64,000 bases of DNA, taken from an uncultured Roseobacter sp. Lineage in GTDB: Bacteria > Pseudomonadota > Alphaproteobacteria > Rhodobacterales > Rhodobacteraceae. The DNA is taken from the NCBI RefSeq assembly GCF_947496515.1, contig NZ_CANMDB010000002.1, positions 496,001 through 560,000 of the forward strand, written 5' to 3'. How positions within the stretch are numbered: position 1 is the stretch's first letter; every line of letters starts with the position of its first letter. Positions 6,936 to 26,972 of this stretch are shown one piece after another. The notes under the pieces are model-generated. The model ran no database searches, had not been told where the DNA came from, and saw only the letters and a list, made by a program, of their open reading frames with translations. Both the position numbers and the translations under genes were made by a program.

Positions 6936-6967
6936 GCGGCGGCATGATCCCCACAACATGCCGCCGC
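6936..6967 (+). promoter_or_regulatory. Intercistronic hairpin after binding-protein gene
   Basis: Perfect 11-bp arms GCGGCGGCATG (6936-6946) and CATGCCGCCGC (6957-6967) enclose a 10-nt loop. It probably stabilises the upstream binding-protein message and dampens read-through. An in-frame ATG at 6958 lies inside the 3' arm and so is a poor start codon for the next gene. Confidence 0.75.
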
Positions 6968-6987
6968 ACGCGATACGGGTGATCCCT

Positions 6988-12253: not shown

Positions 12254-13482
12254 AGCTCGGCTGTATCGGCGACGATTTCACAGGCTCCAGCGATCTGGCC
12301 AATACGCTGGCCAAACAGGGCATGCGCGTGGTGCAATATAGCGGCATCCCCTCTCAACCGGCGGCCGCGGATGTGGAGGCGGGCGTTGTCTCGCTCAAGT
12401 CCCGCTCCATCAACCCCGCCGACGCGGTAGCACAGTCACTGGAGGCGCTGGCGTGGCTCAGGGCGCAGGGCTGCACACAGTTCTTTTTCAAATACTGCTC
12501 CACCTTCGATTCCACACCCGCGGGCAACATCGGCCCGGTTGCGGATGCGCTGGCAGAGGCGCTTGGCGCGGACAGGGTGATCGTCTGCCCCGCCTTTCCG
12601 GGCACGGGGCGGTCGGTCTATCAGGGGCATCTGTTTGTAAACGACACGCTGCTCAATGAAAGCGGGATGGAGAACCACCCGCTGACGCCCATGACAGACG
12701 CGGATCTACGGCGGTGGATAAGCTATCAGAGCAAGCACGAAATCGGCCATGTACCCGCGCAGACGGTCTTTGCCGGGTCGGACGCCATTGCCGCCGCTCT
12801 GGACGCACAGCACGCCGCGGGCAAGACACATATCGTCGTGGATGCCATTCGCGACGAAGATCTGATGCAGATCGGGGCCGCCGCAAAGAACCTTGCGTTG
12901 ATCACCGGCGGCTCCGGTATCGCGCTTGGCCTGCCCGCGAATTTCGGCTGCAGCCCGCAGACGCCCGACTGGCGGGAACAGCCGGGTCCGGCGCTGGCAC
13001 TCTCCGGCTCCTGCTCCACCGCGACGCGCGGTCAGGTCGCCCGGCACGCCGCATCCCATCCGGCCCGCGAGCTCTCCGCCGCAGAGATCATCGAGGCGCG
13101 CGTCACCCCGGCAGAGGTGCTCGACTGGGCGATGGCGGCAGGCGGCGTGCCACTTGTCTACAGTTCCGCCGACCCGGACGTGGTGAAATCCGTTCAGGAC
13201 CGCTTTGGCCGCGAGACCGCCGCAGCCGCGATCGAGACGTTCTTTGCTGATCTCGCCCGTCTCGCAACCGCCGCAGGCGTCACCCGGATCATCACCGCAG
13301 GCGGCGAAACCTCCGGCGCGGTGGTGGAAGCGCTGGATCTTGAGGAGCTGATCATCGGGCCCGAGATCGACCCGGGCGTGCCCGCCCTGCGCGCTGGCGC
13401 AGAGCTGGTCGTGGCACTCAAATCCGGCAACTTCGGAGCAGAGGATTTCTTTGAAAAAGCAGCCCGGGTTCTGGGCGGATGA
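12250..13482 (+). CDS. otnK: Four-carbon acid sugar kinase (OtnK, DUF1537 family)
   Basis: The protein has 410 residues. The DUF1537 family was shown to be ATP-dependent tetronate kinases. The N-terminal domain starts with the characteristic GCIGDDFTGSSDLANTLA motif, and the nucleotide-binding C-terminal domain includes LALSGSCSTATRGQV and the glycine-rich RIITAGGETSGAVVEAL. It phosphorylates 3-oxo-tetronate at C4. It sits between the dehydrogenase and the aldolase/decarboxylase with ATGA overlaps on both sides, exactly the gene set of the threonate/erythronate pathways. Confidence 0.93.
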   Translation: MKLGCIGDDFTGSSDLANTLAKQGMRVVQYSGIPSQPAAADVEAGVVSLKSRSINPADAVAQSLEALAWLRAQGCTQFFFKYCSTFDSTPAGNIGPVADALAEALGADRVIVCPAFPGTGRSVYQGHLFVNDTLLNESGMENHPLTPMTDADLRRWISYQSKHEIGHVPAQTVFAGSDAIAAALDAQHAAGKTHIVVDAIRDEDLMQIGAAAKNLALITGGSGIALGLPANFGCSPQTPDWREQPGPALALSGSCSTATRGQVARHAASHPARELSAAEIIEARVTPAEVLDWAMAAGGVPLVYSSADPDVVKSVQDRFGRETAAAAIETFFADLARLATAAGVTRIITAGGETSGAVVEALDLEELIIGPEIDPGVPALRAGAELVVALKSGNFGAEDFFEKAARVLGG

Positions 13483-14126
13483 GCGAGGCGAAGCTGCGCG
13501 AAAGCATCTGCCTGCTGGCGCGCTCGCTCTATGACCGGGGGCTGACCCACGGCTCCACCGGCAATATCTCCTCGCGGACGGAGGACGGCGGGCTGCTGGT
13601 CTCGCCCACGGGGACCAGCTTTGGCCGTCTGGATCCCGCACGGCTCAGCCGGTTCGACGCCGAAGGCCGGTTGATCAACGGCGACCCGCCCACCAAGGAG
13701 ATGCCGCTTCATTCAGCGTTTTACGATACGCGCAGCACGGCGGGCGCGGTCGTGCACCTGCATTCCTGCCACTCGGTTGCGCTGTCCCTGCTCCCCGACA
13801 ATGACGAGGACAGCTTTCTGCCGCCGCTGACACCCTATGCGGTGATGCAGCTGGGCCGGGTCAAGCTACTGCCCTTCTTCGTTCCGGGCGATCCCGCGAT
13901 GGGGGATGCGGTGCGCGGGCTGGCGGGCAAACGGGCGGCGGTGATGCTCGCCAATCACGGCCCCGTGGTTGCGGGAAAAACAATCGAGGCCGCCTGCAAT
14001 GCCATCGAAGAGCTGGAGGCCACCGCGCGGCTCGCGTTGATGATGCGCGGTCTCCCGGCTCAGGCGCTGTCACCGGCGCAGATCTCTCAGGTGGTGACGA
14101 AATTTGATGTGGAGTGGGATACATGA
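13479..14126 (+). CDS. otnC: 3-oxo-tetronate 4-phosphate decarboxylase (OtnC, class II aldolase family)
   Basis: The protein has 215 residues in the class II aldolase/adducin family. Motifs are THGSTGNIS near the N-terminus, the catalytic Glu in KEMPLHSAFY, the zinc histidines in VVHLHSCHS and a third His in ANHGPVVAG. In this operon type the enzyme decarboxylates 3-oxo-tetronate 4-phosphate to dihydroxyacetone phosphate and carbon dioxide, delivering carbon to central metabolism. It overlaps the kinase and isomerase genes by ATGA junctions. Confidence 0.92.
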   Translation: MSEAKLRESICLLARSLYDRGLTHGSTGNISSRTEDGGLLVSPTGTSFGRLDPARLSRFDAEGRLINGDPPTKEMPLHSAFYDTRSTAGAVVHLHSCHSVALSLLPDNDEDSFLPPLTPYAVMQLGRVKLLPFFVPGDPAMGDAVRGLAGKRAAVMLANHGPVVAGKTIEAACNAIEELEATARLALMMRGLPAQALSPAQISQVVTKFDVEWDT

Positions 14127-14869
14127 CCCGATTTTCAGCCAACCTGGGCTTTTTGTGGAACGACCGACCGCTGCCCGAGGCGATCCGGGCCGCGCATGCC
14201 GCAGGTTTCGCCGCCGTAGAATGTCACTGGCCCTACGCAACACCCGCCGAGGAGGTCCGCGCCACGCTGGAGGCCACGGGCCTGCCCATGCTCGGGCTCA
14301 ACACCCTGCGCGGCAAGCCGGGCGAAAACGGGCTCGCCGCCCTTCCCGGGCGCGAGGCCGAAGCGCGCGCGGCGATAGATCAGGCCATCGACTATGCGAA
14401 TGCGACGGACACTGGCGCGATCCACGTCATGGCCGGTTTTGCCCAGGGTGAAGAGGCGCGGCATTGCTTTGAAGCGAACCTTGCCTATGCCGCAGAGCGC
14501 ACGGAGCGGATGATCCTGATAGAGCCGCTCAATCGCCACGACGCCCCTGGATACTTCCTGCAGACCACCGATCAGGCCCGCGAGATCATCGGCACCGTCG
14601 ACGCGCCCAATCTCAAGCTGATGTTCGATTGCTATCACGTTGGCCGGACCGAAGGCGACGTGATGACCCGGCTCAGCGATCTGCTGTCGGTGATCGGCCA
14701 TATCCAGTTTGCCGCGGTGCCCGACCGCGGTGTGCCGGACCATGGCGAGCTGAACTACGCCGAGATATTCGCCCACATCGCGACGCTCGGATGGGACACG
14801 CCGCTTGGTGCGGAGTTCAAGCCCGCTGCGCCCGAGGACATCACCGGTTGGATTGCCTCCGTCACGTGA
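14123..14869 (+). CDS. otnI: 2-oxo-tetronate isomerase (OtnI, hydroxypyruvate isomerase family)
   Basis: The protein has 248 residues in the xylose-isomerase-like TIM-barrel family. Signatures include RFSANLGFLWNDRPLPEAI at the N-terminus, the metal/catalytic Glu in ILIEPLNRHDAPGYFL, and KLMFDCYHVGRTEGD, GHIQFAAVPDRG and the C-terminal GAEFKP. It interconverts 2-oxo- and 3-oxo-tetronate between the dehydrogenase and kinase steps. The ATG at 14123 is chosen for its ATGA overlap with otnC; an in-frame ATG 9 bp earlier is less likely. Last gene of the operon. Confidence 0.9.
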   Translation: MTRFSANLGFLWNDRPLPEAIRAAHAAGFAAVECHWPYATPAEEVRATLEATGLPMLGLNTLRGKPGENGLAALPGREAEARAAIDQAIDYANATDTGAIHVMAGFAQGEEARHCFEANLAYAAERTERMILIEPLNRHDAPGYFLQTTDQAREIIGTVDAPNLKLMFDCYHVGRTEGDVMTRLSDLLSVIGHIQFAAVPDRGVPDHGELNYAEIFAHIATLGWDTPLGAEFKPAAPEDITGWIASVT

Positions 14870-14935
14870 CGCCGAACCGGCACGCCGACCAGTAATAATC
14901 TTTGCAGCTTTGCCGGTGTCGCGCAGGACACCTCA

Positions 14936-14959
14936 GCATTGCCTCCTCAGAGGCAATGC
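14936..14959 (+). terminator. Hairpin after the tetronate operon
   Basis: A perfect 10-bp stem (GCATTGCCTC / GAGGCAATGC) with a 4-nt loop lies 66 bp after the otnI stop. There is no T-run, so it is either a weak intrinsic terminator or a 3'-end protecting hairpin. The rest of 14870-15186 holds no gene; its last part contains the candidate MarR operator and an AT-rich promoter-like stretch. Confidence 0.55.
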
Positions 14960-15154
14960 CCAACCGCACGACCCTATCCGAGACACAGTAGAACGCACCG
15001 CCACAGCGCAGCAGCCAATACCGCTGTCACCCGACCGGTTTCGGCTCTTTGCTCAACAATCTGGCGCTGGTCGAGCTGATCTAAAAATCACCCGGAGCGG
15101 ACCGCCCGTGCCGCACCAAGAAGTGTTGACAGAAAATTAAATTCGCTCATATCA

Positions 15155-15166
15155 TTCGTATACAAA
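15155..15166. promoter_or_regulatory. Candidate MarR operator upstream of the molybdenum-hydroxylase operon
   Basis: TTCGTATACAAA is a near-palindrome centred on GTATAC, 20 bp upstream of the first gene's start. A copy with one base changed, TTCGTATGCAAA, stands 20 bp upstream of the divergent enamidase gene at 23951-23962. The MarR gene between them is the obvious candidate binder. Confidence 0.55.
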
Positions 15167-15186
15167 CAAAACTGGCCGGAGGACGT

Positions 15187-16017
15187 GTGAGCTTTTACAG
15201 ACCTGATCATTTGTCCGATGCGCTGGAGATCGCCGCGCAGGGCCCCGGGAAGATCGTCGCAGGCGGGACCGACCTCTACCCCTCCGCCAAGCAGGGTCAG
15301 CGACCGGAGTTTTATCTGGACATCACGGCCGTTCAGGAACTGCGCAGGGTCCGTTTCACGCAAACAGGGACGCATATCGGTGCTGGTGTGACGTGGAGCG
15401 CGCTGGTCGCTGCCGACCTGCCGCCCGCCTTCGACGCGCTGAAAGCGGCGGCGCTGGAGATCGGCAGCGTGCAGATCCAGAACGCAGGCACCGTTGTCGG
15501 CAATCTCTGCAACGCCTCGCCCGCCGCAGACGGTGTACCCGCGCTGCTGGCGCTCGATGCGGCGGTGGAAATCCTCAGCACCGCGCGGGGGACCCGCATC
15601 GTCCCGCTTGATCGCTTCATCACCAATGTCCGGCAGACGGATCTGGCCGGGGACGAAATCGTCACCGGAATCCGGATCCCGCCACAACCCGGCAACATGC
15701 GGTCCGCCTTTGAGAAGCTGGGCAGCCGTCGCTATCTGGTGATCTCGATCTGCATGACGGCGGCGAACATCGCCTGCGATGATCAGGGCTGCATCGAGGA
15801 GGCGCGCATCGCCGTAGGCGCATGTTCCCCGGTCGCGCAGCGGTTGAGCACGCTGGAAGGGCGCCTGATCGGGCAGCGGCCCGCCGACATCGAGGTCACG
15901 CCCGAGGACCTGGCCCCGCTCTGCCCCATCAACGACGTGCGCGGCAGCGCTGCCTACCGGATGGATGTGGTCGCAGAACAGGTGGCGCGCGCCGTGCGAA
16001 AGGCAGCAGTGTCATGA
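15187..16017 (+). CDS. Molybdenum hydroxylase FAD-binding (medium) subunit
   Basis: The protein has 276 residues of the CoxM/XdhB type. FAD-binding motifs are IVAGGTDLYPSAK (about residues 22-34) and IQNAGTVVGNLCNASPAADG (about 98-117), and the CO-dehydrogenase flavoprotein C-terminal domain follows. It accepts electrons from the iron-sulfur clusters of the partner encoded next (ATGA overlap). The GTG start at 15187 is supported by GGAGG seven bases upstream. Context suggests a nicotinate-type ring hydroxylase, but the substrate cannot be told from this subunit. Confidence 0.9.
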   Translation: MSFYRPDHLSDALEIAAQGPGKIVAGGTDLYPSAKQGQRPEFYLDITAVQELRRVRFTQTGTHIGAGVTWSALVAADLPPAFDALKAAALEIGSVQIQNAGTVVGNLCNASPAADGVPALLALDAAVEILSTARGTRIVPLDRFITNVRQTDLAGDEIVTGIRIPPQPGNMRSAFEKLGSRRYLVISICMTAANIACDDQGCIEEARIAVGACSPVAQRLSTLEGRLIGQRPADIEVTPEDLAPLCPINDVRGSAAYRMDVVAEQVARAVRKAAVS

Positions 16018-18752
16018 ACAAGCAGTTTGACCACGCCGCCGCGCTGTCGTTCCGCTTGAACGATACCACCGTCTCGGCCGCGCCCTATCCCGGCCAGCGG
16101 CTCTCTGATCTGCTGCGCGAGGGCCTCGGCTCGCGCGACGTCAAAGTCGGCTGCGATGCCGGTGACTGCGGCGCCTGCACGGTACTCCTTGATGGCGACC
16201 CCGTCTGCGCGTGCCTGACGCCAGCGCATCAGGTGCAGGGCCGGAGGGTGGAAACGCTTGCCGGTCTTTACGAAAGCGACGCGCAGGCACAGGCCTTGGC
16301 CCAACGCTTCCTGGATCATGGTGCTGCGCAATGCGGCATCTGTACGCCCGGCATGATCGTCTCCGCCGTGGCCTTGCTGCGCCGCGATCCGTCACCGGCT
16401 GACGACGACGTCAAGACCGCTCTGGGCGGTGTGCTCTGCCGCTGTACCGGATACCGCAAGATCATCGATGCGGTGATCAATGCACCGGGGACGGCTCAGA
16501 GTGGCGACGGCACAGTCGGCAGCTCCGTCCCCCATCTCGATGGCATGCCCAAGGTCACAGGCGCCATGGCTTACGGCGATGACATCGCACCGCAGGGTTG
16601 TCTTGAGATCCTGGTGATCCGGTCGCCCTTCGCCCGCGCGTCCTTTGTTCTGGGAGACATGGACAGCCTCACGGACCAACCGGGTGTCGCTGCGGTTCTG
16701 ACGGCGGCTGACATCCCCGGCCAGAACGCCTTTGGTGTGATCCCGCAGTTCATAGACCAGCCCGTCTTTGCCGAAGGCAAGGTGCGTTTTCGCGGGGAAG
16801 CCGTGGCGGCCATCGTGGCGGAGCCTGCGTTTCTGGCGGCGTTCGATCCGAAGCGGTTTCCCGTGACCTGGACCGAGCTGCCCGCGTCGTCGGATGTCAC
16901 CGCCGCACAGCAGGAAGGCGCGCCCGAGCTTCACCCGGGACGCACGCACAACGTGATGTGCGGTGGTTTCGTCAGCCGCGGCGATCCGCAGACAACGCTG
17001 GCACGGGCCGCGGTCACCGTCGAAGGCCGTTTTCAGAGCGGCTTTGTGGAGCATGGCTATATCGAGCCCGAAGCAGGCTTTGCCGAAATGACAGGGGGGC
17101 GTCTGGTGCTGCATGCCTGCACCCAGGCGCCCGTCATGGACCTGGAGGGGTTGGCGGGCATCCTCGCCATGGACCGCTCCGAGATCCGGGTCGTTCCCAC
17201 GGCGGTCGGCGGCGGCTTTGGCTCCAAGCTGGATCTGACGGTGCAACCCTACCTCGCGCTCGGCGCGCTCAAGACGGGTCGACCGGTGCGCATGCGCTAT
17301 TCGCGCACGGAATCGATGCAAAGCTCCACCAAGCGCCACCCCTCCGACATCACGCTGAGGATCGGCGCCGATGCGCAGGGGCGGATCTGTGGTTTCGACT
17401 TCCACGGCACCTTCGACACCGGCGCCTACGCCAGCTGGGGACCGACCGTTGCCAACCGGGTGCCGGTGCATGCGTCCGGGCCCTACAAGGTGGCGGACTA
17501 CCGGGCGGCATCCAAAGGCGTGCATACAAACAACCCGCCCGCGGGCGCCTTTCGCGGCTTTGGCGTGCCGCAATCAGCCATCGCACAGGAGAGCCTGTTT
17601 GACGAACTGGCGGAGAAACTGGGCATGGACGCGCTGGAATTCCGCATCCTCAACGCGCTGGAGAATGGCGCGCCCACGGTCTGCGGTCAGGTCTTCGATC
17701 AGGGGGTGGGGATCAAACCCTGCCTTGAGGCCCTGCGCCCCGCCTGGGCGGCAGAGCGGGCGGCTGCTGCGGCCTTCAACGACAGCAACGGGGTGCGCAG
17801 GCGGGGCGTCGGCGTGGCGGGTGGCTGGTACGGCTGCGGCAATACCTCGCTGCCCAATCCCTCGACCATCAAGTCCGGCATCCGCGCCGACGGCACCATC
17901 GTGCTGCATCAGGGTGCGGTGGACATCGGGCAAGGATCGAACACCGTGATCACCCAGATCTTTGCCGAGGCACTCGGCGTGCCGGTGGGCGCGATCACGC
18001 GGGTCGGCGGCGATACAGATGTCACCCCGGACGCGGGCAAGACCTCCGCCTCGCGCCAGACCTATGTGTCGGGCAATGCCGCGCGGCTCTCGGGGGAAGC
18101 ACTCCGAGCACAGATCCTGGAGAAGATCAACGTCGGCATCGACGCCCGCCTGACAATCGACGGGCCTGAGATCACCGCTGAGGATAGCGCCGGGCTCCAC
18201 ACGCTGAGCCTCGCGGGCCTCGCCGCGGATGAAGACGGTTTCGTGCTGCACGCCTGCGAAAGCTACGACCCCCCAACCAAACCGCTCGACGCGCAAGGTC
18301 AGGGCGCGCCCTACGCGCAGTTCGGCTACGCCGCGCATCTGGCGGTGGTGGAGGTCGATACCGCCATGGGCACGGTCACGCCCGTGAAATTCGTGGCCGC
18401 CCATGACGTGGGCAAAGCCATCAACCCCATGCTCGTCGAAGGGCAGGTGCACGGCGGCATCGCCCAGGGCCTCGGCATGGCGCTGATGGAGGAATACTTG
18501 CCCGGGCGGACCGAGAACCTGCACGACTACCTGATCCCCACCATCGGGGACATTCCGCCGATCGAGACGATCATCATAGAGGAGCCCGACGCCCACGGAC
18601 CGCACGGCGCCAAGGGTCTGGGCGAGCATGTGCTGATCCCGACGGCTCCCGCGCTGCTCAACGCCATCAAGGCAGCGACCGGCGTGCGCCACCGCCAAGT
18701 GCCCGCAACCCCTGCCCGGGTGCGCACCGAAATTCTGAAGGCGCAGCCGTGA
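16014..18752 (+). CDS. Fused [2Fe-2S]/molybdopterin subunit of molybdenum hydroxylase (nicotinate dehydrogenase-like)
   Basis: The protein has 912 residues combining two normally separate subunits. Residues 1 to about 155 are the CoxS-type iron-sulfur protein with cluster motifs CDAGDCGAC (C47, C52, C55), a further Cys near 65, CGIC (C107, C110) and CRC (C142, C144). The rest is the xanthine-dehydrogenase-family Mo subunit with GGGFGSK, AFRGFG, IGQGSNT and the C-terminal GAKGLGEH, whose Glu is the usual catalytic base. It probably hydroxylates an N-heteroaromatic ring (nicotinate to 6-hydroxynicotinate, by context), using water as oxygen donor and passing electrons to the FAD subunit encoded upstream. 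The XDH form with FAD fused is not seen here. Confidence 0.88.
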   Translation: MNKQFDHAAALSFRLNDTTVSAAPYPGQRLSDLLREGLGSRDVKVGCDAGDCGACTVLLDGDPVCACLTPAHQVQGRRVETLAGLYESDAQAQALAQRFLDHGAAQCGICTPGMIVSAVALLRRDPSPADDDVKTALGGVLCRCTGYRKIIDAVINAPGTAQSGDGTVGSSVPHLDGMPKVTGAMAYGDDIAPQGCLEILVIRSPFARASFVLGDMDSLTDQPGVAAVLTAADIPGQNAFGVIPQFIDQPVFAEGKVRFRGEAVAAIVAEPAFLAAFDPKRFPVTWTELPASSDVTAAQQEGAPELHPGRTHNVMCGGFVSRGDPQTTLARAAVTVEGRFQSGFVEHGYIEPEAGFAEMTGGRLVLHACTQAPVMDLEGLAGILAMDRSEIRVVPTAVGGGFGSKLDLTVQPYLALGALKTGRPVRMRYSRTESMQSSTKRHPSDITLRIGADAQGRICGFDFHGTFDTGAYASWGPTVANRVPVHASGPYKVADYRAASKGVHTNNPPAGAFRGFGVPQSAIAQESLFDELAEKLGMDALEFRILNALENGAPTVCGQVFDQGVGIKPCLEALRPAWAAERAAAAAFNDSNGVRRRGVGVAGGWYGCGNTSLPNPSTIKSGIRADGTIVLHQGAVDIGQGSNTVITQIFAEALGVPVGAITRVGGDTDVTPDAGKTSASRQTYVSGNAARLSGEALRAQILEKINVGIDARLTIDGPEITAEDSAGLHTLSLAGLAADEDGFVLHACESYDPPTKPLDAQGQGAPYAQFGYAAHLAVVEVDTAMGTVTPVKFVAAHDVGKAINPMLVEGQVHGGIAQGLGMALMEEYLPGRTENLHDYLIPTIGDIPPIETIIIEEPDAHGPHGAKGLGEHVLIPTAPALLNAIKAATGVRHRQVPATPARVRTEILKAQP

Positions 18753-20236
18753 AAGACGACATCAAACCCGAAAAGATCCGCTGCGACGCCTGCCCCGTCA
18801 TGTGCTACATCGCCGAGGGGAAATCAGGGGCCTGTGACCGCTACGCCAATCACGCAGGGGAACTCATCCGGCTCGACCCGCTGACCATCATCGAAGGCGG
18901 GCAGCAGCAGGTCGTCCCCTTCCTGCCCGGCGGCGGGACCGACAATTGGGACGGCGACATCATCAAGGGCAGCCGCCCCTTCGTGACCGCGGTGGGGGCC
19001 GGTACCACCTATCCGGACTATAAACCCGCCCCCTTTATCGTCAGCCAGGACATCGACGGCGTGGATATGGTGACGGTCGTGACCGAAGGGATCTTCAGCT
19101 ACTGCGGCGTCAAGGTAAAGATCGACACGGACCGGCACATCGGCCACGAACGCGACGTGGTCCGCGTGGAGGGTGAGCCCATCGGCCACGTCATGACGTC
19201 TGAGTACGGCTCCAAGATGCTGTCGCTGGGCGGGGTCGAACATCTGACCGGCGGGTCCAAGAAAGAGGGTCGCGTCACCTGCGACGCGCTCATGCGGCTC
19301 TGCAACCGGGAGCCTGTCACCATGGTGATCGGCGAAGAGGACGCGCACCCGACCGAAGTGGTTTTGGAAGCAGGCAAACCGCCCATCATCAACGGCGTGA
19401 CCGAGCGGCTGATGCGCGTGGGCTGCGGCTCCGCCACCATCGGGATGTTTCCCAAGAAATGGCTGGGCCACGCGGATGAGGTGGTCGTGGTCGATGACCA
19501 TATCACTGGTGTCCTGTCGGAACATGAGACCGGCAAGCAGCTCGATGTCCCCCCCACGGGTATCAAGATCATCGGGCGACGCTCGACGCCAGGGCGCTAT
19601 TTTCAGGTGGCTAACCCCGGCACCGGCTGGGGCGGCACGGATATCGAGGATCCGCTGACCATTCTGGGACCCTTCAACCCAAAGATCGCGTGGGAAGGTC
19701 TGCGCCTGCTGATGGTCTCCACCACCGGCGAGCAATACGCCTATTTCGAGCTGGACACGGATCTCACGCCCCAGCCGCACCCCGTGCCGGAGGCATTGCG
19801 CGCCTCGGCTGATCTGATCGCCGAGAACTGCGAGCCGTCGGTCTGTTCGGTGCTCTTCATGGCGGGGGCGGGCGGCAGCTTGCGGGCGGGCGTGACGGAA
19901 AACCCCGTGCGGCTCACCCGGTCGGTCAAGGACAGCCTGACCCATGTCTCCTGCGGTGGGGCGGATGCCTATGTCTGGCCCGGCGGCGGCATCACCGTCA
20001 TGGTCGATGTGCTGGACATGCCCACGCAATCCTTTGGCTACGTGCCCACGCCTGCGCTGGTCGCCCCCATCGAATTCACCCTGCGCGCCAGCGACTACCG
20101 GACGCTGGGCGGGCATGTGGATCAGATCAAGTCGGTGGATCAGATCAATCAGGCCGAAGCGCGCAAGGTCGCGCGCAACGAGCGCGATCACGATCCGGTG
20201 GCGCAGGGCAATTTCCGCTGGGCCCGGAAACCGTGA
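18749..20236 (+). CDS. hnr: 6-hydroxynicotinate reductase homologue
   Basis: The protein has 495 residues. The N-terminus has cysteines C12, C15, C19 and C29 (CDACPVMC then AC), consistent with an iron-sulfur cluster. The remainder contains glycine-rich stretches and shows no transmembrane segments. The family is known from Hnr of Eubacterium barkeri, which reduces 6-hydroxynicotinate to 1,4,5,6-tetrahydro-6-oxonicotinate with reduced ferredoxin. The identification rests on my recall of the family and on its place between a molybdenum hydroxylase and an enamidase, which are the flanking steps of that pathway. Starts with an ATGA overlap and ends with a GTGA overlap. Confidence 0.72.
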   Translation: MKDDIKPEKIRCDACPVMCYIAEGKSGACDRYANHAGELIRLDPLTIIEGGQQQVVPFLPGGGTDNWDGDIIKGSRPFVTAVGAGTTYPDYKPAPFIVSQDIDGVDMVTVVTEGIFSYCGVKVKIDTDRHIGHERDVVRVEGEPIGHVMTSEYGSKMLSLGGVEHLTGGSKKEGRVTCDALMRLCNREPVTMVIGEEDAHPTEVVLEAGKPPIINGVTERLMRVGCGSATIGMFPKKWLGHADEVVVVDDHITGVLSEHETGKQLDVPPTGIKIIGRRSTPGRYFQVANPGTGWGGTDIEDPLTILGPFNPKIAWEGLRLLMVSTTGEQYAYFELDTDLTPQPHPVPEALRASADLIAENCEPSVCSVLFMAGAGGSLRAGVTENPVRLTRSVKDSLTHVSCGGADAYVWPGGGITVMVDVLDMPTQSFGYVPTPALVAPIEFTLRASDYRTLGGHVDQIKSVDQINQAEARKVARNERDHDPVAQGNFRWARKP

Positions 20237-21102
20237 ACCACACGGGCCCCACCGCGAATATACTGCCCTGCGGGCAGCGGCTGCACCTGCAGCACGGGCC
20301 CATTGATTTGGTGATCGGCGCCGATGGCCAGCGGCAACGCGCCTTTGAGGCCGCCGTGGCCCGGTTTTCAACCGTGCTGGCCGAGCTGGTCGAAGAGCTG
20401 CCCGCGCTCCGCACCCCGCTCGGCGCGCGCACGCCGCGACCCACTGGGGAGGTCGCGCGCCGGATGCACGCCGCCGCCCTGCCCTTCCGGCCCTCGGGGT
20501 TCCTGACCCGCATGGCCGCGGTGGCGGGCGCGGTCGCGGATGAGATCCTGGCCGCCATGTGTGCGGCAGCGGTGCTCGAGCGTGCCTATGTGAACAACGG
20601 CGGGGACATCGCCTTGCATCTGACCGGTGCCGCCACCTTCACCACGGCGATGACCGATCACCGCGGCCAGATGCTGGGCCGGATCACCCTGACGGCCCGC
20701 GACGGTGTCGGCGGGATCGCCACCAGCGGCCGCCACGGGCGCAGCCACTCCTTGGGCATCGCCGACAGCGTGACCGTGCTGGCCCGGACCGCCGCGACCG
20801 CCGATGTGGCCGCGACCCTCGTTGCCAATGCGGTCGATCTGCCCGGGCACCCCGCCATCACCCGCCGCGCCGCCTCCGCTCTGGACGAAAACGCTGACCT
20901 CGGTGACCGGCCTGTCGTCACAGGCTGCGGCGCGCTTGCGGCACCCGACTGCCACTGCGCCCTCGCCCGCGGCAAGGACCGTGCCGCGGGTTTCACCAAA
21001 GCCCCCCTGATCCACAGCGCGGCACTGTTTCTTCAGGAGCACGCCTGTGTCACTGATCACAACGCCTTCGCGCTGCACCACCCCGAGGATGCCTATGCCT
21101 GA
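20233..21102 (+). CDS. UPF0280 family protein (ApbE-like fold)
   Basis: The protein has 289 residues. The GTG start overlaps the reductase stop (GTGA). The blocks VNNGGDIALHL and GGIATSGRHGRSHSLGIADSVTVLA parallel the conserved core of ApbE FAD:protein FMN transferases, to which UPF0280 is distantly related; the histidine/proline HxxDPRTG block of true ApbE is replaced. The function of UPF0280 is not established. Its fixed place behind the reductase suggests a maturation role, for example flavin attachment or cofactor delivery, but this is inference. No signal peptide is present, unlike periplasmic ApbE. Confidence 0.75.
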   Translation: MNHTGPTANILPCGQRLHLQHGPIDLVIGADGQRQRAFEAAVARFSTVLAELVEELPALRTPLGARTPRPTGEVARRMHAAALPFRPSGFLTRMAAVAGAVADEILAAMCAAAVLERAYVNNGGDIALHLTGAATFTTAMTDHRGQMLGRITLTARDGVGGIATSGRHGRSHSLGIADSVTVLARTAATADVAATLVANAVDLPGHPAITRRAASALDENADLGDRPVVTGCGALAAPDCHCALARGKDRAAGFTKAPLIHSAALFLQEHACVTDHNAFALHHPEDAYA

Positions 21103-21676
21103 GCCAACGATCCGAAAAACCGCCTATTCCGTGGAAGAGATCTTTCACGAAGGCGGTCCTGCACCCGCCCAGAGCCTCAAACGCGCCTCCGGTATGGCGG
21201 TGATCGAGAACCCCTTTGCCGGGCGGTACGAGCCCGACATTGCGTGGTTCATGGAGGATCTCAAACCGCTCGGCCTGCAGATCGCGCAAAAGCTGGCGGA
21301 TCTGCTCGGCGGCGCGGCCAACGTCCAAGGCTACGGCAAGGGCGCGCTCGTGGGTGAGGCAGGAGAGCTTGAGCACGGCGCGCTCTGGCACGTGCCGGGC
21401 GGCTACGCCATGCGCGAACTGCTCGACAATTCCAACGCGATTGTGCCCTCCACCAAGAAGGTCTGCGGCCCGGGGGGGCGGCTCGACGTGCCCCTCACCC
21501 ATATCAACGCCTCCTACGTGCGCAGCCATTTCGACGCCATGGAAGTGGGGCTGAGCGACGCCCCCCGCGCCCGTGAAATGGCCCTCGTTCTGGTCATGAG
21601 CACCGGCGCACGCATCCACGACCGCGTCGGCGGGCTGGCGGCAAAGGACATCGTTGGAAAGGACGGGCTGAGATGA
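21095..21676 (+). CDS. DUF1185 (amino-acid-synthesis family) protein, copy 1
   Basis: The protein has 193 residues and belongs to Pfam AA_synth/DUF1185, small cytosolic proteins with a chorismate-mutase-like fold and unknown reaction. Family hallmarks are MAVIENPFAGRYEPD, YGKGALVGEAGELEHGA, VPSTKKV and DVPLTHINASYVRSHFDAMEV. The start at 21095 is chosen because GAGG lies seven bases upstream; it overlaps the UPF0280 gene by 8 bp. It is paralogous to the next gene. Their co-occurrence with ring reductase and enamidase genes suggests they act on the ring-opened or reduced intermediate. Confidence 0.85.
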   Translation: MPEPTIRKTAYSVEEIFHEGGPAPAQSLKRASGMAVIENPFAGRYEPDIAWFMEDLKPLGLQIAQKLADLLGGAANVQGYGKGALVGEAGELEHGALWHVPGGYAMRELLDNSNAIVPSTKKVCGPGGRLDVPLTHINASYVRSHFDAMEVGLSDAPRAREMALVLVMSTGARIHDRVGGLAAKDIVGKDGLR

Positions 21677-22257
21677 GTGCCAAGATCCGGAAAATCGCCG
21701 TCACCATCGAGGAAACCCACATCGAGATGGGCAAGCCGATCGACCCCGCCACCCGCAAGGCCGTCGCGGTGGCGGTCATCGAAAACCCCTTTGCGGGCAA
21801 CTATCAAGAGGATCTGTCAGACCTGATGGAGATTGGCGCAGAACTGGGCGCGCTGCTCGGCAAAAAATGCGTGGAGGCCCTGGGCATCTCCCCGGATCAG
21901 GCGGAAAGCTACGGCAAATCAGCGATGGTCGGCGAGAACGGCGAGCTGGAACACGCGGCTGCCATCCTCCACCCCAAGCTGGGCGCACCGCTGCGCGCCG
22001 AGGTTGAGCGGGGCGCGGCCCTCGTCCCCTCGTCGAAAAAGATAGGCAGCCCGGGTCAGGTACTCGACGTACCGCTGGGCCACAAGGACGCCGCCTACGT
22101 GCGCAGCCACTTTGACGGGATCGAGGTACAGCTGAACGACGCACCCCGCGCGGGCGAGATCATGGTGGCCGTCGCGGTGACGGACAGCGGCAGGCCCCTG
22201 CCCCGCGTCGGTGGTCTGACCCATGACGCAGCCGAAGGCAACGACGGGCTGAGGTAG
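21673..22257 (+). CDS. DUF1185 (amino-acid-synthesis family) protein, copy 2
   Basis: The protein has 194 residues and shares with the preceding gene the blocks VAVIENPFAGNYQED, YGKSAMVGENGELEHAA, VPSSKK and DVPLGHKDAAYVRSHFDGIEV. The ATGA overlap with copy 1 indicates equal co-translation, so the products may form a hetero-oligomer. Sequence divergence outside these blocks shows an old duplication, not a recent one. Function unknown. Confidence 0.85.
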   Translation: MSAKIRKIAVTIEETHIEMGKPIDPATRKAVAVAVIENPFAGNYQEDLSDLMEIGAELGALLGKKCVEALGISPDQAESYGKSAMVGENGELEHAAAILHPKLGAPLRAEVERGAALVPSSKKIGSPGQVLDVPLGHKDAAYVRSHFDGIEVQLNDAPRAGEIMVAVAVTDSGRPLPRVGGLTHDAAEGNDGLR

Positions 22258-22302
22258 GCTTTGGCCCTTGTTCACACGCCTGCCTTGGCGGTAGGAACGG
22301 CT

Positions 22303-22746
22303 ATGGATGCCTCGGACGCGGATGCGGCAAAACTCTCTGACTACCGGCTGGATGAACAGGTCGGCTATTTGCTGCGGCTTGCCAACCAGCGACACGCAAC
22401 GATTTTCCAGCGGCTGATCTCGGAGGAGCTGACCCCCACCCAGTTCTCGACCCTGATCCGCGTGGCAGAGCAGGGGCAGGTCTCGCAGAACCATCTGGGG
22501 CGGCTCGCGGCGATGGATGTGGCAACCACCAAGGGCGTGGTGGACAGGCTCAAGGCAAAAGGGCTGATCGTCGCGCACCCCGACCCCAACGACAAACGCC
22601 GCTCCAATATCTCGCTGTCAGCCAGCGGGGCCAGGATGGTCGACGTGCTCGTGCGGGACGGTCAGGACATCACGCAGGAGACGCTCAAACCCCTGACGCA
22701 GGCAGAGCGTAACCGGCTGCTGGAGCTGCTGCAGAAACTCAGCTGA
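22303..22746 (+). CDS. MarR-family regulator of the heteroaromatic cluster
   Basis: The protein has 147 residues with the MarR winged-helix core: LTPTQFSTLIRVAEQG, the recognition helix region NHLGRLAAMDVATTKGVVDRLKAKGL, and the wing HPDPNDKRRSNISLS. The ATG at 22303 is chosen over a TTG at 22261 because GGAAC precedes it and the family alignment begins there. It is the last gene on the plus strand of the cluster, 45 bp after the second DUF1185 gene, and faces the enamidase gene tail to tail. It probably binds the shared TTCGTATRCAAA sites upstream of both transcription units. Confidence 0.88.
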   Translation: MDASDADAAKLSDYRLDEQVGYLLRLANQRHATIFQRLISEELTPTQFSTLIRVAEQGQVSQNHLGRLAAMDVATTKGVVDRLKAKGLIVAHPDPNDKRRSNISLSASGARMVDVLVRDGQDITQETLKPLTQAERNRLLELLQKLS

Positions 22747-22767
22747 CGCGGTGACACGGGCGACGGC

Positions 22768-23931
22768 TCACGTGATCCGCTCGGGAAACCGGTTCGCGGG
22801 CGGCGTGTTGCGGGAGCGTTCGGTGCGCACGATCCCGTCGATGATCGTCATGCCGACACCCGGCAGATTACCCTGTGCCACGCTCTCCAGCATCGTCTTG
22901 CCGGGGGAGTGCTGCGCCTGATCCAGCAGCACGAAATCCGCACTATACCCCTTTTCGATCAGACCCACATCGAGACCACGCTGACGGGCGGTATTGCCGT
23001 TGCCAAAGCAAAAGGCCTGCTCCGCCGGAACATTGCCAAAGGCCGACAGCATCGCGATCATCCGCAGGATCCCCAAGGGCTGCACCCCCGATCCCGCCGG
23101 GCCATCCGTCCCGAGTATCACCTGATCGAGCTTACCGAGCTCCCGCGCGGTATTGACCGTCAGCACCGCCGCGCGCTCGTTGCCGTTGTGCACGATCTCA
23201 AAGGCCGACTGGCAGGTCTCGCACAGGCAGATGATCTGATCGTCCGGCAAGGCGGAATGCCCGCCGTTGATATGACCGATCACATCCGTCCCCGTCTCGA
23301 TCACCATATCCGCATCAATGAGCCCCGATCCGGGGATCGACGGACCGCCCGTATGGATCGTCGATTGCATCCCGTATTTGCGCGCCCAGCTGACCATCTG
23401 CCCTGCGGTCTTGCCGTCCTTGACGGTGCCCAGACCCACCTCACCCAGATACCTGACGCCCGCCCGCGCCATTTCGGCAAAGTCCTCCTCCACCATGCCC
23501 TGTTCGATCACCGGCGCACCTGCATGCACCTTGACCCCCGAGGGGCGAAAGTTCTCGTACCAGCGCTGCGCGGCAATCGACATCGCCTTGAGACCGACGA
23601 TGTCCTTGGGCCTGCCCGGCATATGCACCTCCCCGGCAGAGATCATCGTGGTGACCCCACCGTGCAAGGTGCTGTCGATCCAGTGCAACTGCTGCTGCCG
23701 GGGGGTGTAGTCACCGACCACGGGGTGCACATGGCTGTCGATCAACCCCGGTGCCAGCGTGACACCCTTGGCATCCACCTGCTCGGTTGCACCCTCACAA
23801 TCCAGATCCCGTTCGGCCCCCCAGTCATGGATGCGCCCGTCGATGGCCACGAGGCAATCCCCGTCAAAGATCGGATCCTCGAACTTGCCGGACAGGATCT
23901 GACCGATGTTGCGAATGACCAGCTTGCTCAT
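22768..23931 (-). CDS. ena: Enamidase (tetrahydro-6-oxonicotinate amidohydrolase) homologue
   Basis: The protein has 387 residues, an amidohydrolase-superfamily enzyme. Expected metal ligands are H67 and H69 (SHVHP), E164 (GEVGLGT), H193 (IHTGG), H220 (GHINGG) and D276 (GTDGPAG). From memory it agrees closely with Eubacterium barkeri enamidase in blocks such as DYTPRQ, LHGGVTTMISAG, PGRPKD, EVGLGT, TGGPSIPGS and the C-terminal SRNTPPA. That enzyme hydrolyses 1,4,5,6-tetrahydro-6-oxonicotinate to 2-formylglutarate plus ammonia. The ATG at 23931 is preceded by a GGGGG ribosome-binding site; a longer frame to 24069 is rejected. It is convergent with the MarR gene. Confidence 0.82.
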   Translation of the reverse strand: MSKLVIRNIGQILSGKFEDPIFDGDCLVAIDGRIHDWGAERDLDCEGATEQVDAKGVTLAPGLIDSHVHPVVGDYTPRQQQLHWIDSTLHGGVTTMISAGEVHMPGRPKDIVGLKAMSIAAQRWYENFRPSGVKVHAGAPVIEQGMVEEDFAEMARAGVRYLGEVGLGTVKDGKTAGQMVSWARKYGMQSTIHTGGPSIPGSGLIDADMVIETGTDVIGHINGGHSALPDDQIICLCETCQSAFEIVHNGNERAAVLTVNTARELGKLDQVILGTDGPAGSGVQPLGILRMIAMLSAFGNVPAEQAFCFGNGNTARQRGLDVGLIEKGYSADFVLLDQAQHSPGKTMLESVAQGNLPGVGMTIIDGIVRTERSRNTPPANRFPERIT

Positions 23932-23950
23932 GGTACGCCCCCAAAATTTG

Positions 23951-23962
23951 TTCGTATGCAAA
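23951..23962. promoter_or_regulatory. Candidate MarR operator upstream of the enamidase gene
   Basis: TTCGTATGCAAA differs at one base from the site at 15155-15166 and stands at the same distance from the start codon. The remainder of 23970-24279 holds no gene or motif that I can support. Confidence 0.55.
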
Positions 23963-24279
23963 TGTAAAAGCGCCCCACCTGTCAAGCTGGAATGGCGGGA
24001 TCCGCCACGAGCGGTAACGCTCGGATCGTCGGGCAACGCGTGCCGGCATCGCCCCGACCAAAACACCAACGGCAGATCCGTCGTCCCGCGGCGACCATGC
24101 TGACAACGACAGGGCGAAACCCGCTCGCCAGCGACGGCCTGCTACCAAGCGGGCAGCCACGTCCCCCGGACGCCAACCAGCCGCTCAACCGCACCGAATA
24201 GGACAGCATCTCCAAGGCCCTGGGCCCAGATCCCCCTTGAACACCTCACCGGGCGCTGCCACGGGACATAGCTGAACAC

Positions 24280-24355
24280 CCCGCTCTTTCATCTTGCCAG
24301 ATAAACTCCGGGGGACGGCCGCAGGCCGGGGGGCAGAGCCCCCAATAACCCCGGA
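24280..24355 (-). repeat. Dispersed 3' element, copy 1: 29-nt conserved block plus branched hairpin
   Basis: The 29-nt block at 24280-24308 (containing TCTTTCATCTTGCCAGATAA) differs at one base from the block at 29361-29389. Next to it lies a nested structure: an outer 7-bp stem (24307-24313 with 24349-24355) holding two inner hairpins, GGCC-GCA-GGCC at 24317-24327 and a G-run/C-run stem at about 24328-24343. Read on the minus strand it follows the stop of the metalloprotease gene, hairpin first and conserved tail second, as a terminator or 3'-UTR element would. Confidence 0.7.
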
Positions 24356-24419
24356 TCGCACTTCACTTACCGACAGCCGCCGCGCAAGACGACACCCCGG
24401 CAACAGGTGCCACGCCCCG

Positions 24420-26972
24420 CTAGATCAGCGCCGTCTCCTCAAAGATCAGACCTTCGGACAGCGCCAGATACCCTGCCGTTTCCGTCACGTGACGCACCTC
24501 ACTGTCCTCCGAAGCTTCCTCTTCGGCGAAGAGCGCCACACCATTCGCGCTCAGCGCGTTCATGCGTACCGTCGCGGTATCCCGACCATCAAAGCTCTGC
24601 ATGTCGGCCAGAACAACCGGCGCATCATCAAAGGCGGCATTGAACACGAACCAATCCGCAGTGTCGGTCAGCTGATCGCCGGTCAGGACCGCATCGCGCC
24701 CGTCCGCCGCCCCGGCCTCGACCGCAATCCACGACACGGTTTCCGCCACATGCGAGCCGAGCGCTTCTTCTTCCTGCAAGCGCAGCTCAAAACCGCTCTG
24801 ATCCACATTCCTGATCCGGGTGGTGACCGCATCATCCTCGTTCACGGAGGCCACCTCCGCAAAGACCACCGCATCGTCCAGGGCTTCGCCAAAGCTGACA
24901 TCCGCAAACCGGGTGCCGACGTCTTGGGTGCCGGCCACGATTGTCTGGCCACCGGACAAGGTGTGCGACCCCTCGGAGATCGCCAGCCACCCGACCGTTT
25001 CCTGAATATGCGCCCCGTCCAGATAGTTCCATTCGTCAATCTGGAACTGGAACCCCGTGTCCGACACATCGCGGACCCGCGTCGTCGCCTGCTCGACACC
25101 GTTCAGCGTGATGGGTCCCATGACGACCACCGCGTTCTCGATCACACTTTCGAAGGTCACCGTATGCCATTGCGCGGCATTGTCCTGAACCACCGTGGCT
25201 TTGCCGCTCTGCCCGATGGGATTTTGCGAAACGTCATCCACACCGCTGACCGTGACAGCAACCGCCGCCGTGTCGGATCCGCCACTGCCGTCGACCACCG
25301 TGTACTCGAATGTCTCCGTCGCTGTCTGCCCGGCGGTCAGGGACACAAAGGCGCCGTTTTGCGCGTAGCTCAGCGTGCCGTTCGCATTCAACGTGACCGC
25401 GGCCCCCGAGGCCAGCGACACCGATCCGCCCACCGCAACGGCCTGACCGTTGATCTGGGTGATGGCCAGCGCATCCCCGTCCGCGTCGGTGTCATTCCCC
25501 AGCACGTCCAGGGACAGGGCGGCCCCTTCGGCCACGCTCGCGTCATCGTTGCGCGCGACGGGTGCCGCGTTGGTGTTGCTGAAAAGATCAGCAATCGCGT
25601 CGTAGCTGTAGGTGATATCCGAAAAGCGGAAACTTTCGACCGTATCAAACACCCGGTCGATGCCCTCGCCAATCACCTCGATCGCATTGATAAAGAGCGA
25701 GAACGTATAGCTCGCAAAGGCCGAATTATAGAGCACCGTGTCAAACCCGGCCTCACCGATGAATGTGTCATTGCCCTCCCGGCCCAGAAAGGTGTCATCC
25801 CCCGCGCCACCGCGCAGGACATTGTCCGCCGCGTTGCCGATCAGCGCATCATTGCCGGACCCGCCGATCGCATTCTCGATCACGGTGCCTACCGCAAGCG
25901 TCAGGTTGCCCTCTCGACCGCCGATATCAGAGCTATTCTGCACCGTCTGATCCGCGGTCTGGATCGTCAGGTCGATCTTCTGCGCGTTGCTGTAGCCACT
26001 GAAGTCCAGCGTATCGATCCCGCCTCCGTCAACGATGGTCGAGGCCGTGCGATCCGCAAAAGACGCATAGCTGTTCCAGATCTCGCTCTGGCCCGCCGAG
26101 ATCGTGGTGTTGAACCCGTAGGTCGTATCGCCCGTGAAGGCATTCGACACCCCATAGCCAAAGCGACCGTAGATCTGGTCCAGCGCCAGCCAATCCACCG
26201 CCATGGGGGTCTGCAGAAACTCACGGTCCGCCGTGATGGCGGTGTTTTCGCTCTGCGAGAAATACGACATCATGGACGCCTGCCAGCTATCCAGTTCATA
26301 GATCGCATCATTCGCGTAGCGTGCGCTGCCATTGTAGGGACCCTGATGGCCAAGACCCAGGGCATGACCGATCTCGTGCAGGATTGTCTGCAGCGTGTAG
26401 TCGTCATAGGTCGAGGTGCCCCCCGACCAGCCAGCGGCCAGATTGATGTAGGAATAGAAAATCGTCCCGTCGCCAAAACGCGTGGACCCCGCATAGGCTC
26501 CGCTGTCATTGTCGGAAAAGAAGAAATCGACAAAGCTGTCATCGGTGCTGGTCGTTTCCACGAACTCGATGCCCAGCACCGCCTCGTAGATGTCAAAGGC
26601 ATCGCGGATCAACTCGGCCCGCGCGGCAGAAACGCCATTGCTGTCCACATTTCCGCCGTAGCGCAGCGAACTGTAGCCGCTCACATTATAATGCAGCACA
26701 CCGTTGTTCGGGTCGCTCCCGGTCGAGCCCACATTGTGGCGCAACCCGTTGGTGTTGTTCCAGTACCCGGTTTCCAGAAAGTCGGACATTTGCTGAAGGG
26801 TGGCCTGCGCCGCCGCCGATGCCACGCCACCATCGGTCGGCACATCCGCGCGCTCGACATCATCCTTGAACCTGTCGTCAGCCATGCAGGCACTGCACAT
26901 GCAGGTGGACAGATGCTCCGACAGCGGCAAATCAACCGCATCCTGATCAGATGACGTCGACTGTATAGACAT
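24420..26972 (-). CDS. Secreted serralysin-type (M10) metalloprotease with RTX, Ig-like and repeated lectin-like C-terminal domains
   Basis: The protein has 850 residues. The zinc site HEIGHALGLGH is at residues 199-209, with the Met-turn SMMSY near 233-237, as in serralysins. RTX nonapeptides (GGSGNDALIG, GGAGDDTFLG, GREGNDTF) at about 365-405 bind calcium. A VCBS/cadherin-like domain follows (DTDADGDALAITQINGQ, TFEYTVVDGSGGSDTAAVAVTVSG). The last approximately 260 residues hold three approximately 85-residue repeats of the pattern V.F...DDAVVFA...TRIR.V...GF.L, resembling H-type lectin domains. There is no N-terminal signal peptide, consistent with type I secretion, though no T1SS genes are in the window. 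A CMCSACM cluster near residue 24 is unexplained. Confidence 0.88.
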   Translation of the reverse strand: MSIQSTSSDQDAVDLPLSEHLSTCMCSACMADDRFKDDVERADVPTDGGVASAAAQATLQQMSDFLETGYWNNTNGLRHNVGSTGSDPNNGVLHYNVSGYSSLRYGGNVDSNGVSAARAELIRDAFDIYEAVLGIEFVETTSTDDSFVDFFFSDNDSGAYAGSTRFGDGTIFYSYINLAAGWSGGTSTYDDYTLQTILHEIGHALGLGHQGPYNGSARYANDAIYELDSWQASMMSYFSQSENTAITADREFLQTPMAVDWLALDQIYGRFGYGVSNAFTGDTTYGFNTTISAGQSEIWNSYASFADRTASTIVDGGGIDTLDFSGYSNAQKIDLTIQTADQTVQNSSDIGGREGNLTLAVGTVIENAIGGSGNDALIGNAADNVLRGGAGDDTFLGREGNDTFIGEAGFDTVLYNSAFASYTFSLFINAIEVIGEGIDRVFDTVESFRFSDITYSYDAIADLFSNTNAAPVARNDDASVAEGAALSLDVLGNDTDADGDALAITQINGQAVAVGGSVSLASGAAVTLNANGTLSYAQNGAFVSLTAGQTATETFEYTVVDGSGGSDTAAVAVTVSGVDDVSQNPIGQSGKATVVQDNAAQWHTVTFESVIENAVVVMGPITLNGVEQATTRVRDVSDTGFQFQIDEWNYLDGAHIQETVGWLAISEGSHTLSGGQTIVAGTQDVGTRFADVSFGEALDDAVVFAEVASVNEDDAVTTRIRNVDQSGFELRLQEEEALGSHVAETVSWIAVEAGAADGRDAVLTGDQLTDTADWFVFNAAFDDAPVVLADMQSFDGRDTATVRMNALSANGVALFAEEEASEDSEVRHVTETAGYLALSEGLIFEETALI

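Follow-up and report, generated by a model that had tools for sequence, protein, structure and literature searches.

A probable nicotinate-type catabolic gene cluster in a marine Roseobacter, in which a 6-hydroxynicotinate reductase homologue is paired with a UPF0280 protein

We analyzed a 64,000-nucleotide stretch of DNA (here, the window) from an uncultured Roseobacter sp. (assembly GCF_947496515.1, contig NZ_CANMDB010000002.1, positions 496,001 to 560,000, forward strand). Between positions 15187 and 23931, the window encodes a molybdenum (Mo) hydroxylase of the xanthine dehydrogenase type, a homologue of 6-hydroxynicotinate reductase (HNR), a UPF0280 protein, two DUF1185 proteins, a MarR-family regulator, and an enamidase homologue. 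Judged from homology and gene content, this is probably a nicotinate-type catabolic cluster, in which the ring would be hydroxylated, reduced to tetrahydro-oxonicotinate (THON), and opened. The first-pass annotation of this DNA had stated that the hydroxylase, HNR, and enamidase homologues are encoded together, and both the grouping and its coordinates hold; UPF0280 and MarR are members that it left unnamed. As a system, the cluster is not new: it is an instance of a known aerobic nicotinate route that is common in its family. The genes from 15187 to 22746 all run forward, and the enamidase gene (22768 to 23931) is convergent to that for MarR. The features are as follows.

15126..15155, plus strand: promoter-like TTGACA (15126-15131) and TATCAT (15150-15155) with an 18-base spacer, before the main operon; read by eye without a promoter scan
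15155..15166, strand not assigned: TTCGTATACAAA, a putative operator for MarR that overlaps the main operon's -10 region
15187..16017, plus strand: Mo hydroxylase FAD subunit (Pfam FAD_binding_5, 3.6e-41; CO_deh_flav_C, 1.7e-10)
16011..18752, plus strand: Mo hydroxylase, fused [2Fe-2S] and Mo-cofactor subunit (Pfam Fer2_2, MoCoBD_1, MoCoBD_2; start approximate)
18749..20236, plus strand: HNR homologue (41% identity to E. barkeri HNR), without an N-terminal ferredoxin domain
20233..21102, plus strand: UPF0280, putative HNR maturation factor (NCBIfam NF003322, 9.4e-107), a distant ApbE relative
21095..21676, plus strand: DUF1185a (PF06684, AA_synth)
21673..22257, plus strand: DUF1185b (PF06684), closer than DUF1185a to the E. 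barkeri DUF1185
22303..22746, plus strand: MarR-family regulator, 64% identical to a gene annotated MarR in locus L070; no family-library scan
22768..23931, minus strand: enamidase homologue (PDB 2VUN match, E = 2.9e-106)
23951..23962, strand not assigned: second putative operator copy TTTGCATACGAA, before the enamidase gene, with a minus-strand TTGACA at 23985-23980

The gene content was compared with that of Eubacterium barkeri VPI 5359, whose 21-kb locus (L059) was located with the 2VUN sequence. This locus holds homologues of all the window cluster genes except MarR, with one DUF1185. Around its enamidase gene, ena, are genes for homologues of the three hydroxylase subunits (FAD, Fe-S, and Mo) and of HNR; UPF0280 (34% identity) immediately follows hnr, and DUF1185 immediately follows ena. 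The locus also holds the dehydrogenase Hgd and fermentation genes. HNR, UPF0280, the dehydrogenase, enamidase, and DUF1185 are common to both clusters, which places UPF0280 and a DUF1185 in the set shared across phyla. The E. barkeri cluster differs in its split Mo subunits, the ferredoxin domain of its HNR, the single DUF1185 in the stretch read, and its mutase branch. Our search for the later fermentation steps covered the 2-methyleneglutarate mutase Mgm and the serine-dehydratase-like Hmd (hydroxymethylglutarate dehydratase). Across the whole window genome, Mgm gave weak hits to residues 445 to 570 alone (best E = 1.6e-7) and Hmd one weak hit of 103 residues (E = 2.4e-6); both were counted absent, in agreement with the earlier statement that the fermentation mutase is missing.

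The first-pass annotation had proposed aligning the reductase and enamidase with the E. barkeri proteins. The window HNR and the one encoded in the E. barkeri genome shared 41% identity over 456 amino acids, and the enamidase was identical at 172 of 381 aligned positions (45%), identifying both as homologues of the E. barkeri enzymes. The match to 2VUN covered residues 1 to 382 of 386. Six enamidase residues (H67, H69, E164, H193, H220, and D276), which we take to be metal ligands, as in amidohydrolases, were invariant in all 30 aligned enamidases (the window protein with those of 19 of the 23 enamidase-type loci surveyed below and of 10 E. barkeri-type loci). The Mo hydroxylase FAD subunit was 34% identical over 235 amino acids to its E. 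barkeri counterpart, and the fused subunit matched chains A, B, and D of E. barkeri nicotinate dehydrogenase (3HRD) with 249, 201, and 133 bits, together the most bits collected.

The HNR sequence had no match in Pfam or NCBIfam at E values up to 0.001 and no meaningful match in the PDB (one chance hit, E = 1.1), and an AlphaFold model (10 sequences, pLDDT 70, pTM 0.63) matched no PDB structure at E values up to 0.001. Cys12, Cys15, Cys19, and Cys29, which form an Fe-S-type motif, were invariant in 41 of 41 HNRs, as were Cys226 and Cys361. The E. barkeri enzyme reportedly carries a covalent flavin; T230, in the conserved GCGSAT stretch, was considered as the flavin acceptor and ruled out, being replaced by Ala in the HNR of locus L072.

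HNRs also differ at the N terminus. Of the relatives that came from the enamidase search, all 8 whose N terminus could be read had a two-cluster ferredoxin domain there (L061 is cut off at its start, and L066 begins with such a domain and was left out as internally rearranged), and Pfam detected the domain in 8 of the 10 members of the E. barkeri-type HNR alignment. In the rearranged frame (L066:11218-12579, Anaerotruncus colihominis JM4-15), a conserved stretch is missing and another is repeated, through either an assembly error or a real rearrangement. No ferredoxin motif was found in frame upstream of any of 71 alpha- and betaproteobacterial HNRs or of 33 in an overlapping set, and the window HNR has none. 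Because it lacks a built-in ferredoxin domain, its electron donor should be a separate protein. Genes for ferredoxin-NADP reductase occurred near HNR in 9 of 23 enamidase-type neighborhoods, 2 of 19 HyuAB-type neighborhoods, and none of the 29 others (types defined below). The window genome has one such reductase, which lies outside the cluster and is 65% identical to that of a Sulfitobacter cluster.

From these homologies, the following route may be proposed. The Mo hydroxylase would hydroxylate nicotinate at C6, and HNR would reduce 6-hydroxynicotinate to THON with two electrons. A separate carrier would deliver these electrons, with NADPH perhaps as their source and a ferredoxin-NADP reductase as the intermediary. 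The enamidase would hydrolyze THON to 2-formylglutarate and ammonia, and 2-formylglutarate would be taken on by enzymes encoded elsewhere, probably through glutarate. In the sections of PMC3511419 covered, such a nicotinate cluster was published in 2012 for Azorhizobium and Bradyrhizobiaceae, the strains being Azorhizobium caulinodans ORS571, Bradyrhizobium japonicum USDA110, Rhodopseudomonas palustris HaA2, and SG-6C; a continuation through glutarate is cited for Azorhizobium, matching the oxidation toward glutarate that the first-pass annotation had mentioned. The same annotation had regarded ferredoxin-dependent ring reduction as unusual in a largely aerobic bacterium, a view at odds with the 2012 description and with the distribution of HNR. 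HNR was found in 44 of 289 genomes of the class, 79 of 198 of the family (each a different genus), and 9 of 19 of the genus, each count including the window's own genome. It also occurred on 26 of 72,556 plasmid records, 17 of which already annotate it as 6-hydroxynicotinate reductase.

We also surveyed 71 HNR neighborhoods, the window excluded, using identity and coverage thresholds set for this analysis. They were drawn from the hits in the class (19 of 44), on plasmids (4 of 26), in the genus (all 8 apart from the window), and in the family (40 of 79). The most regular companion of HNR was UPF0280, which we take to be the same as COG2122. It lay beside HNR in all 71 neighborhoods, within 300 bp in 69. 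Among the 289 class genomes, it was present in 44 of the 44 with HNR and in 4 of the 245 without, the latter as weak matches below the cutoff (best E = 4.6e-7); none of those four genomes had a DUF39 match. This linkage makes UPF0280 a candidate for a maturation factor specific to HNR, one that might attach the flavin of that enzyme; we regard attachment of the flavin and some other part in maturation as about equally likely.

Support for a flavin-related role comes from ApbE, an FAD:protein FMN transferase. The C-terminal half of ApbE could be aligned to UPF0280 by hhalign (97.1%, E = 4.8e-11; with 81 sequences, 96.4%, E = 1.3e-9), and Pfam ApbE touched 14 of 19 UPF0280 members (best 7.7e-7; the window protein, at 0.13, fell below the cutoff). 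An Asp-Thr pair (D191 and T195) was invariant in 81 of 81 UPF0280 proteins. Other features differ: the N-terminal half was unaligned, and the H-x-I-D-P segment of ApbE, which a somewhat relaxed pattern recovered in 9 of 11 ApbE controls, was lost in 80 of the 81 UPF0280 proteins. The ApbE target motif D-x-x-[ST]-G-A-[ST], as given in the part of PMC12052999 covered, occurred in 0 of 77 HNRs. The window UPF0280 was similar in sequence to the solved structure 2O34 (DVU1097; E = 6.5e-8), and for its poor structural model (pLDDT 56, pTM 0.55) the significant matches were two 2O34 chains only, with ApbE structures at E = 0.48 and worse.

A different function for UPF0280, as a sulfur or persulfide factor, not a flavin transferase, is a close contender for this one step, with a chance slightly below even. 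Such a role has been proposed for the DUF39 homocysteine pathway of Desulfovibrio, in which COG2122 is needed together with DUF39, alongside an NIL-ferredoxin (PMC5764234, in the sections covered). That pathway resembles the HNR cluster in being a reductive system that needs a COG2122 protein, and the loss of H-x-I-D-P from UPF0280 and of the ApbE target motif from HNR also favors a sulfur factor. Against it stand the profile alignment with ApbE (C-terminal half), the invariant D191 and T195, and the covalent flavin that E. barkeri HNR reportedly carries. A more ambitious proposal, which we regard as possible but rather doubtful, is that UPF0280 is a cytosolic, trimmed-down ApbE relative that would install the covalent flavin of HNR at a non-ApbE-like site, and that the same chemistry would explain the need of DUF39 for COG2122, making HNR and DUF39 two clients of one cofactor attachment system.

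DUF39 differs from HNR in showing no significant profile similarity to it, and homology of the two proteins is unsupported (hhalign probability 0.2% with 77 HNRs and 1.1% with 10). When the 10-sequence HNR profile was compared with column-shuffled DUF39, 1 of 60 shuffles scored higher; with the 77-sequence profile, the score equaled the shuffle mean, and the reversed profile scored higher. For ungapped HNR-DUF39 stretches of 12, 16, 20, and 24 columns, the score was equaled or exceeded in 30, 81, 100, and 24 of 300 shuffles, respectively, and a PDB search for a DUF39 structure found none. A short motif in HNR, VDMVTVVTEGIFSYCG (residues 105 to 120; window positions 19061 to 19108), resembles VDVVTTGTFGPMCSSG in DUF39 (L153 to L185); the resemblance is not significant, although it is in line with a two-client scheme. 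In the literature covered, we found no mention of UPF0280 and no link between COG2122 and HNR, though one may exist elsewhere, and the biochemical role of COG2122 is unsettled there.

Other companions of HNR were less constant. Among the 71 neighborhoods, the Mo subunit was present in 65, DUF1185a in 57, MarR in 54, DUF1185b in 39, enamidase in 23, and the hydantoinase/oxoprolinase pair HyuA/HyuB in 19, not counting a HyuA fragment at the edge of L144 that missed the threshold. HyuA/HyuB replaced enamidase in the HNR clusters of L044, L046, L049, L050, L053, L056, L057, and L071, and likewise in L073, L134, L136, L137, and L145 to L151. Enamidase and HyuAB never occurred together (0 of 71; Fisher P = 1.5e-4, without correction for relatedness), and 29 neighborhoods had neither, some of them cut by contig ends or with enamidase elsewhere in the genome. 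HyuA/HyuB may open the reduced ring in an ATP-dependent manner or act on another product. On an HNR tree built by a quick method (77 rows), the ring opener changed 6 times, compared to a mean of 14.4 and a minimum of 10 in 200 shuffles; an earlier tree of 39 rows, on which a row was labeled for enamidase wherever the gene lay in its genome, likewise showed 6 changes but had no shuffle control. HNR subclades thus prefer one opener, and both openers occur across proteobacterial HNRs.

This variation bears on whether the cluster uses the same chemistry on a different substrate, such as a pyridine with substituents or an N-methyl group, or some other N-heterocyclic carboxylate, with nicotinate not being the natural substrate here. 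The hydroxylase, transporter, and ring-opening genes vary around HNR, and its subclades follow the opener. A Rieske oxygenase gene, which could demethylate a precursor such as trigonelline, lies near HNR in 11 of the 71 neighborhoods (L040, L043, L051, L055, L071, L104, L106, L118, L125, L137, and L144); that of L071, the one member scanned, is VanA-type. For the window, however, we consider a different substrate unlikely: it has the E. barkeri gene set and the conserved enamidase ligand residues, the tree rows nearest its HNR are enamidase-type, and no Rieske gene was seen among the translated genes around the cluster.

Several observations nevertheless weigh against the nicotinate route as drawn here. 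The best single PDB chain for the Mo subunit was not nicotinate dehydrogenase but aldehyde oxidoreductase (1DGJ, 403 bits), and hydroxylases of this kind use a wide range of rings, which leaves room for a pyridine with substituents as the substrate. The translated genes from 13479 to 26972 include no transporter gene next to the cluster, unlike in many relatives and in the published proteobacterial clusters, for which a putative nicotinate ABC transporter is stated (PMC3511419, in the sections covered); we counted this transporter as a nonessential feature. Ferredoxin-NADP reductase was near HNR in just 11 of 71 neighborhoods. A close enamidase (at least 64% identity) was present in 18 of 44 HNR genomes, compared to 1 of 245 other class genomes, and its absence from the remaining 26 indicates that HNR is not bound to the enamidase branch. 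Finally, 12 of 19 enamidase upstreams of relatives had at least two mismatches to the putative operator. Taken with the E. barkeri comparison, these points leave nicotinate catabolism through THON as the probable function.

DUF1185b may belong to the early part of this route. The E. barkeri DUF1185 directly behind ena was 51% identical to DUF1185b and 44% identical to DUF1185a. In a DUF1185 tree, a proteobacterial a-group (15 rows) was split from the b-types together with all nine E. barkeri-type proteins (21 rows) with support of 100/99; the tree is unrooted and drawn at its midpoint, and DUF1185a and DUF1185b may be co-orthologues of the E. barkeri protein, with b the more similar. DUF1185b was present in 23 of 23 enamidase loci, 5 of 19 HyuAB loci (60 to 65% identity), and 11 of 29 others, and this tracking of enamidase points to a shared early step. 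DUF1185b was close to PDB 2QTP (E = 1.3e-105). Its chorismate-mutase-like fold also occurs in the Rid enamine deaminases; THON yields an enamine on opening, whose hydrolysis or tautomerization DUF1185b could accelerate. It would thus be a partner of the enamidase, whose enamine or enol product may be what it acts on. 2QTP would correspond to SPO0826, whose neighbors SPO0822 to SPO0825 are branched-chain ABC genes (PMC2954203, in the sections covered). The earlier suggestion that 2-formylglutarate is processed by DUF1185 proteins in place of the fermentation enzymes that are missing is very improbable: two DUF1185 genes do lie within the operon, and the family function is given as unknown in the part of PMC2954203 covered, but E. 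barkeri keeps a DUF1185 alongside its fermentation genes, DUF1185b is nearer than DUF1185a to that protein, and it is enamidase that DUF1185b tracks. With the tree unrooted, such a part for DUF1185a, or for DUF1185b as a co-orthologue whose role has changed, keeps a small probability.

The main operon and the enamidase gene are each preceded by a mismatch-free copy of one operator-like motif. At up to one mismatch, the window held five matches (the two sites on both strands and one other), compared to 0.52 expected, and five or more were found in 1 of 100 shuffles; as the pattern was drawn from these two window sites, this count is not independent, and relatives offer the better test. Among enamidase-type relatives, the motif occurred at up to one mismatch in 15 of 21 xdhB upstreams and 7 of 19 enamidase upstreams, compared to 0.3% of shuffled enamidase upstreams. 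It also preceded xdhB in 8 of 15 HyuAB-type and 14 of 27 other loci, which makes the site a general feature of the HNR operon. We infer that MarR binds this putative operator, TTYGYATACRAA, through which it would control the main operon and the enamidase gene.

The flanking genes appear to serve other functions. Upstream, positions 6958 to 14869 hold ABC sugar-transporter-like, gluconolactonase-like, LtnD-like, and OtnK-like genes (named by eye), and a scan identified 3-oxo-tetronate 4-phosphate decarboxylase (above cutoff) and 2-oxo-tetronate isomerase (below cutoff). This region, including the upstream sugar-type ABC genes, is likely a separate threonate/erythronate (tetronate) catabolic operon. 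Its LtnD-like gene (11354 to 12253) was considered as a 2-(hydroxymethyl)glutarate dehydrogenase and set aside; it shares 35% identity with its E. barkeri homologue yet sits among tetronate genes. Downstream of the cluster, positions 24420 to 26972 (minus strand) encode an 850-amino-acid serralysin-like metalloprotease with RTX repeats and cadherin/Ig-like domains. In other HNR clusters, we observed a conserved protein of about 470 to 490 amino acids (L070:6146-7555 and L073:4737-6200), with similar open reading frames in L042, L050, L109 to L111, L113, L138, L145, L146, L148, L149, and L151 and LivK-type transporter genes nearby in most of these clusters; a Pfam scan of two members gave no match.

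Together, these data add a marine member to the known aerobic nicotinate route. The split between enamidase and HyuAB predicts two ways to open the reduced ring. The strict pairing of UPF0280/COG2122 with HNR is both the useful part of the finding and the least understood part of the cluster, and HNR, whose E. barkeri homologue is said to hold a covalent flavin, would provide a simple client for testing COG2122.

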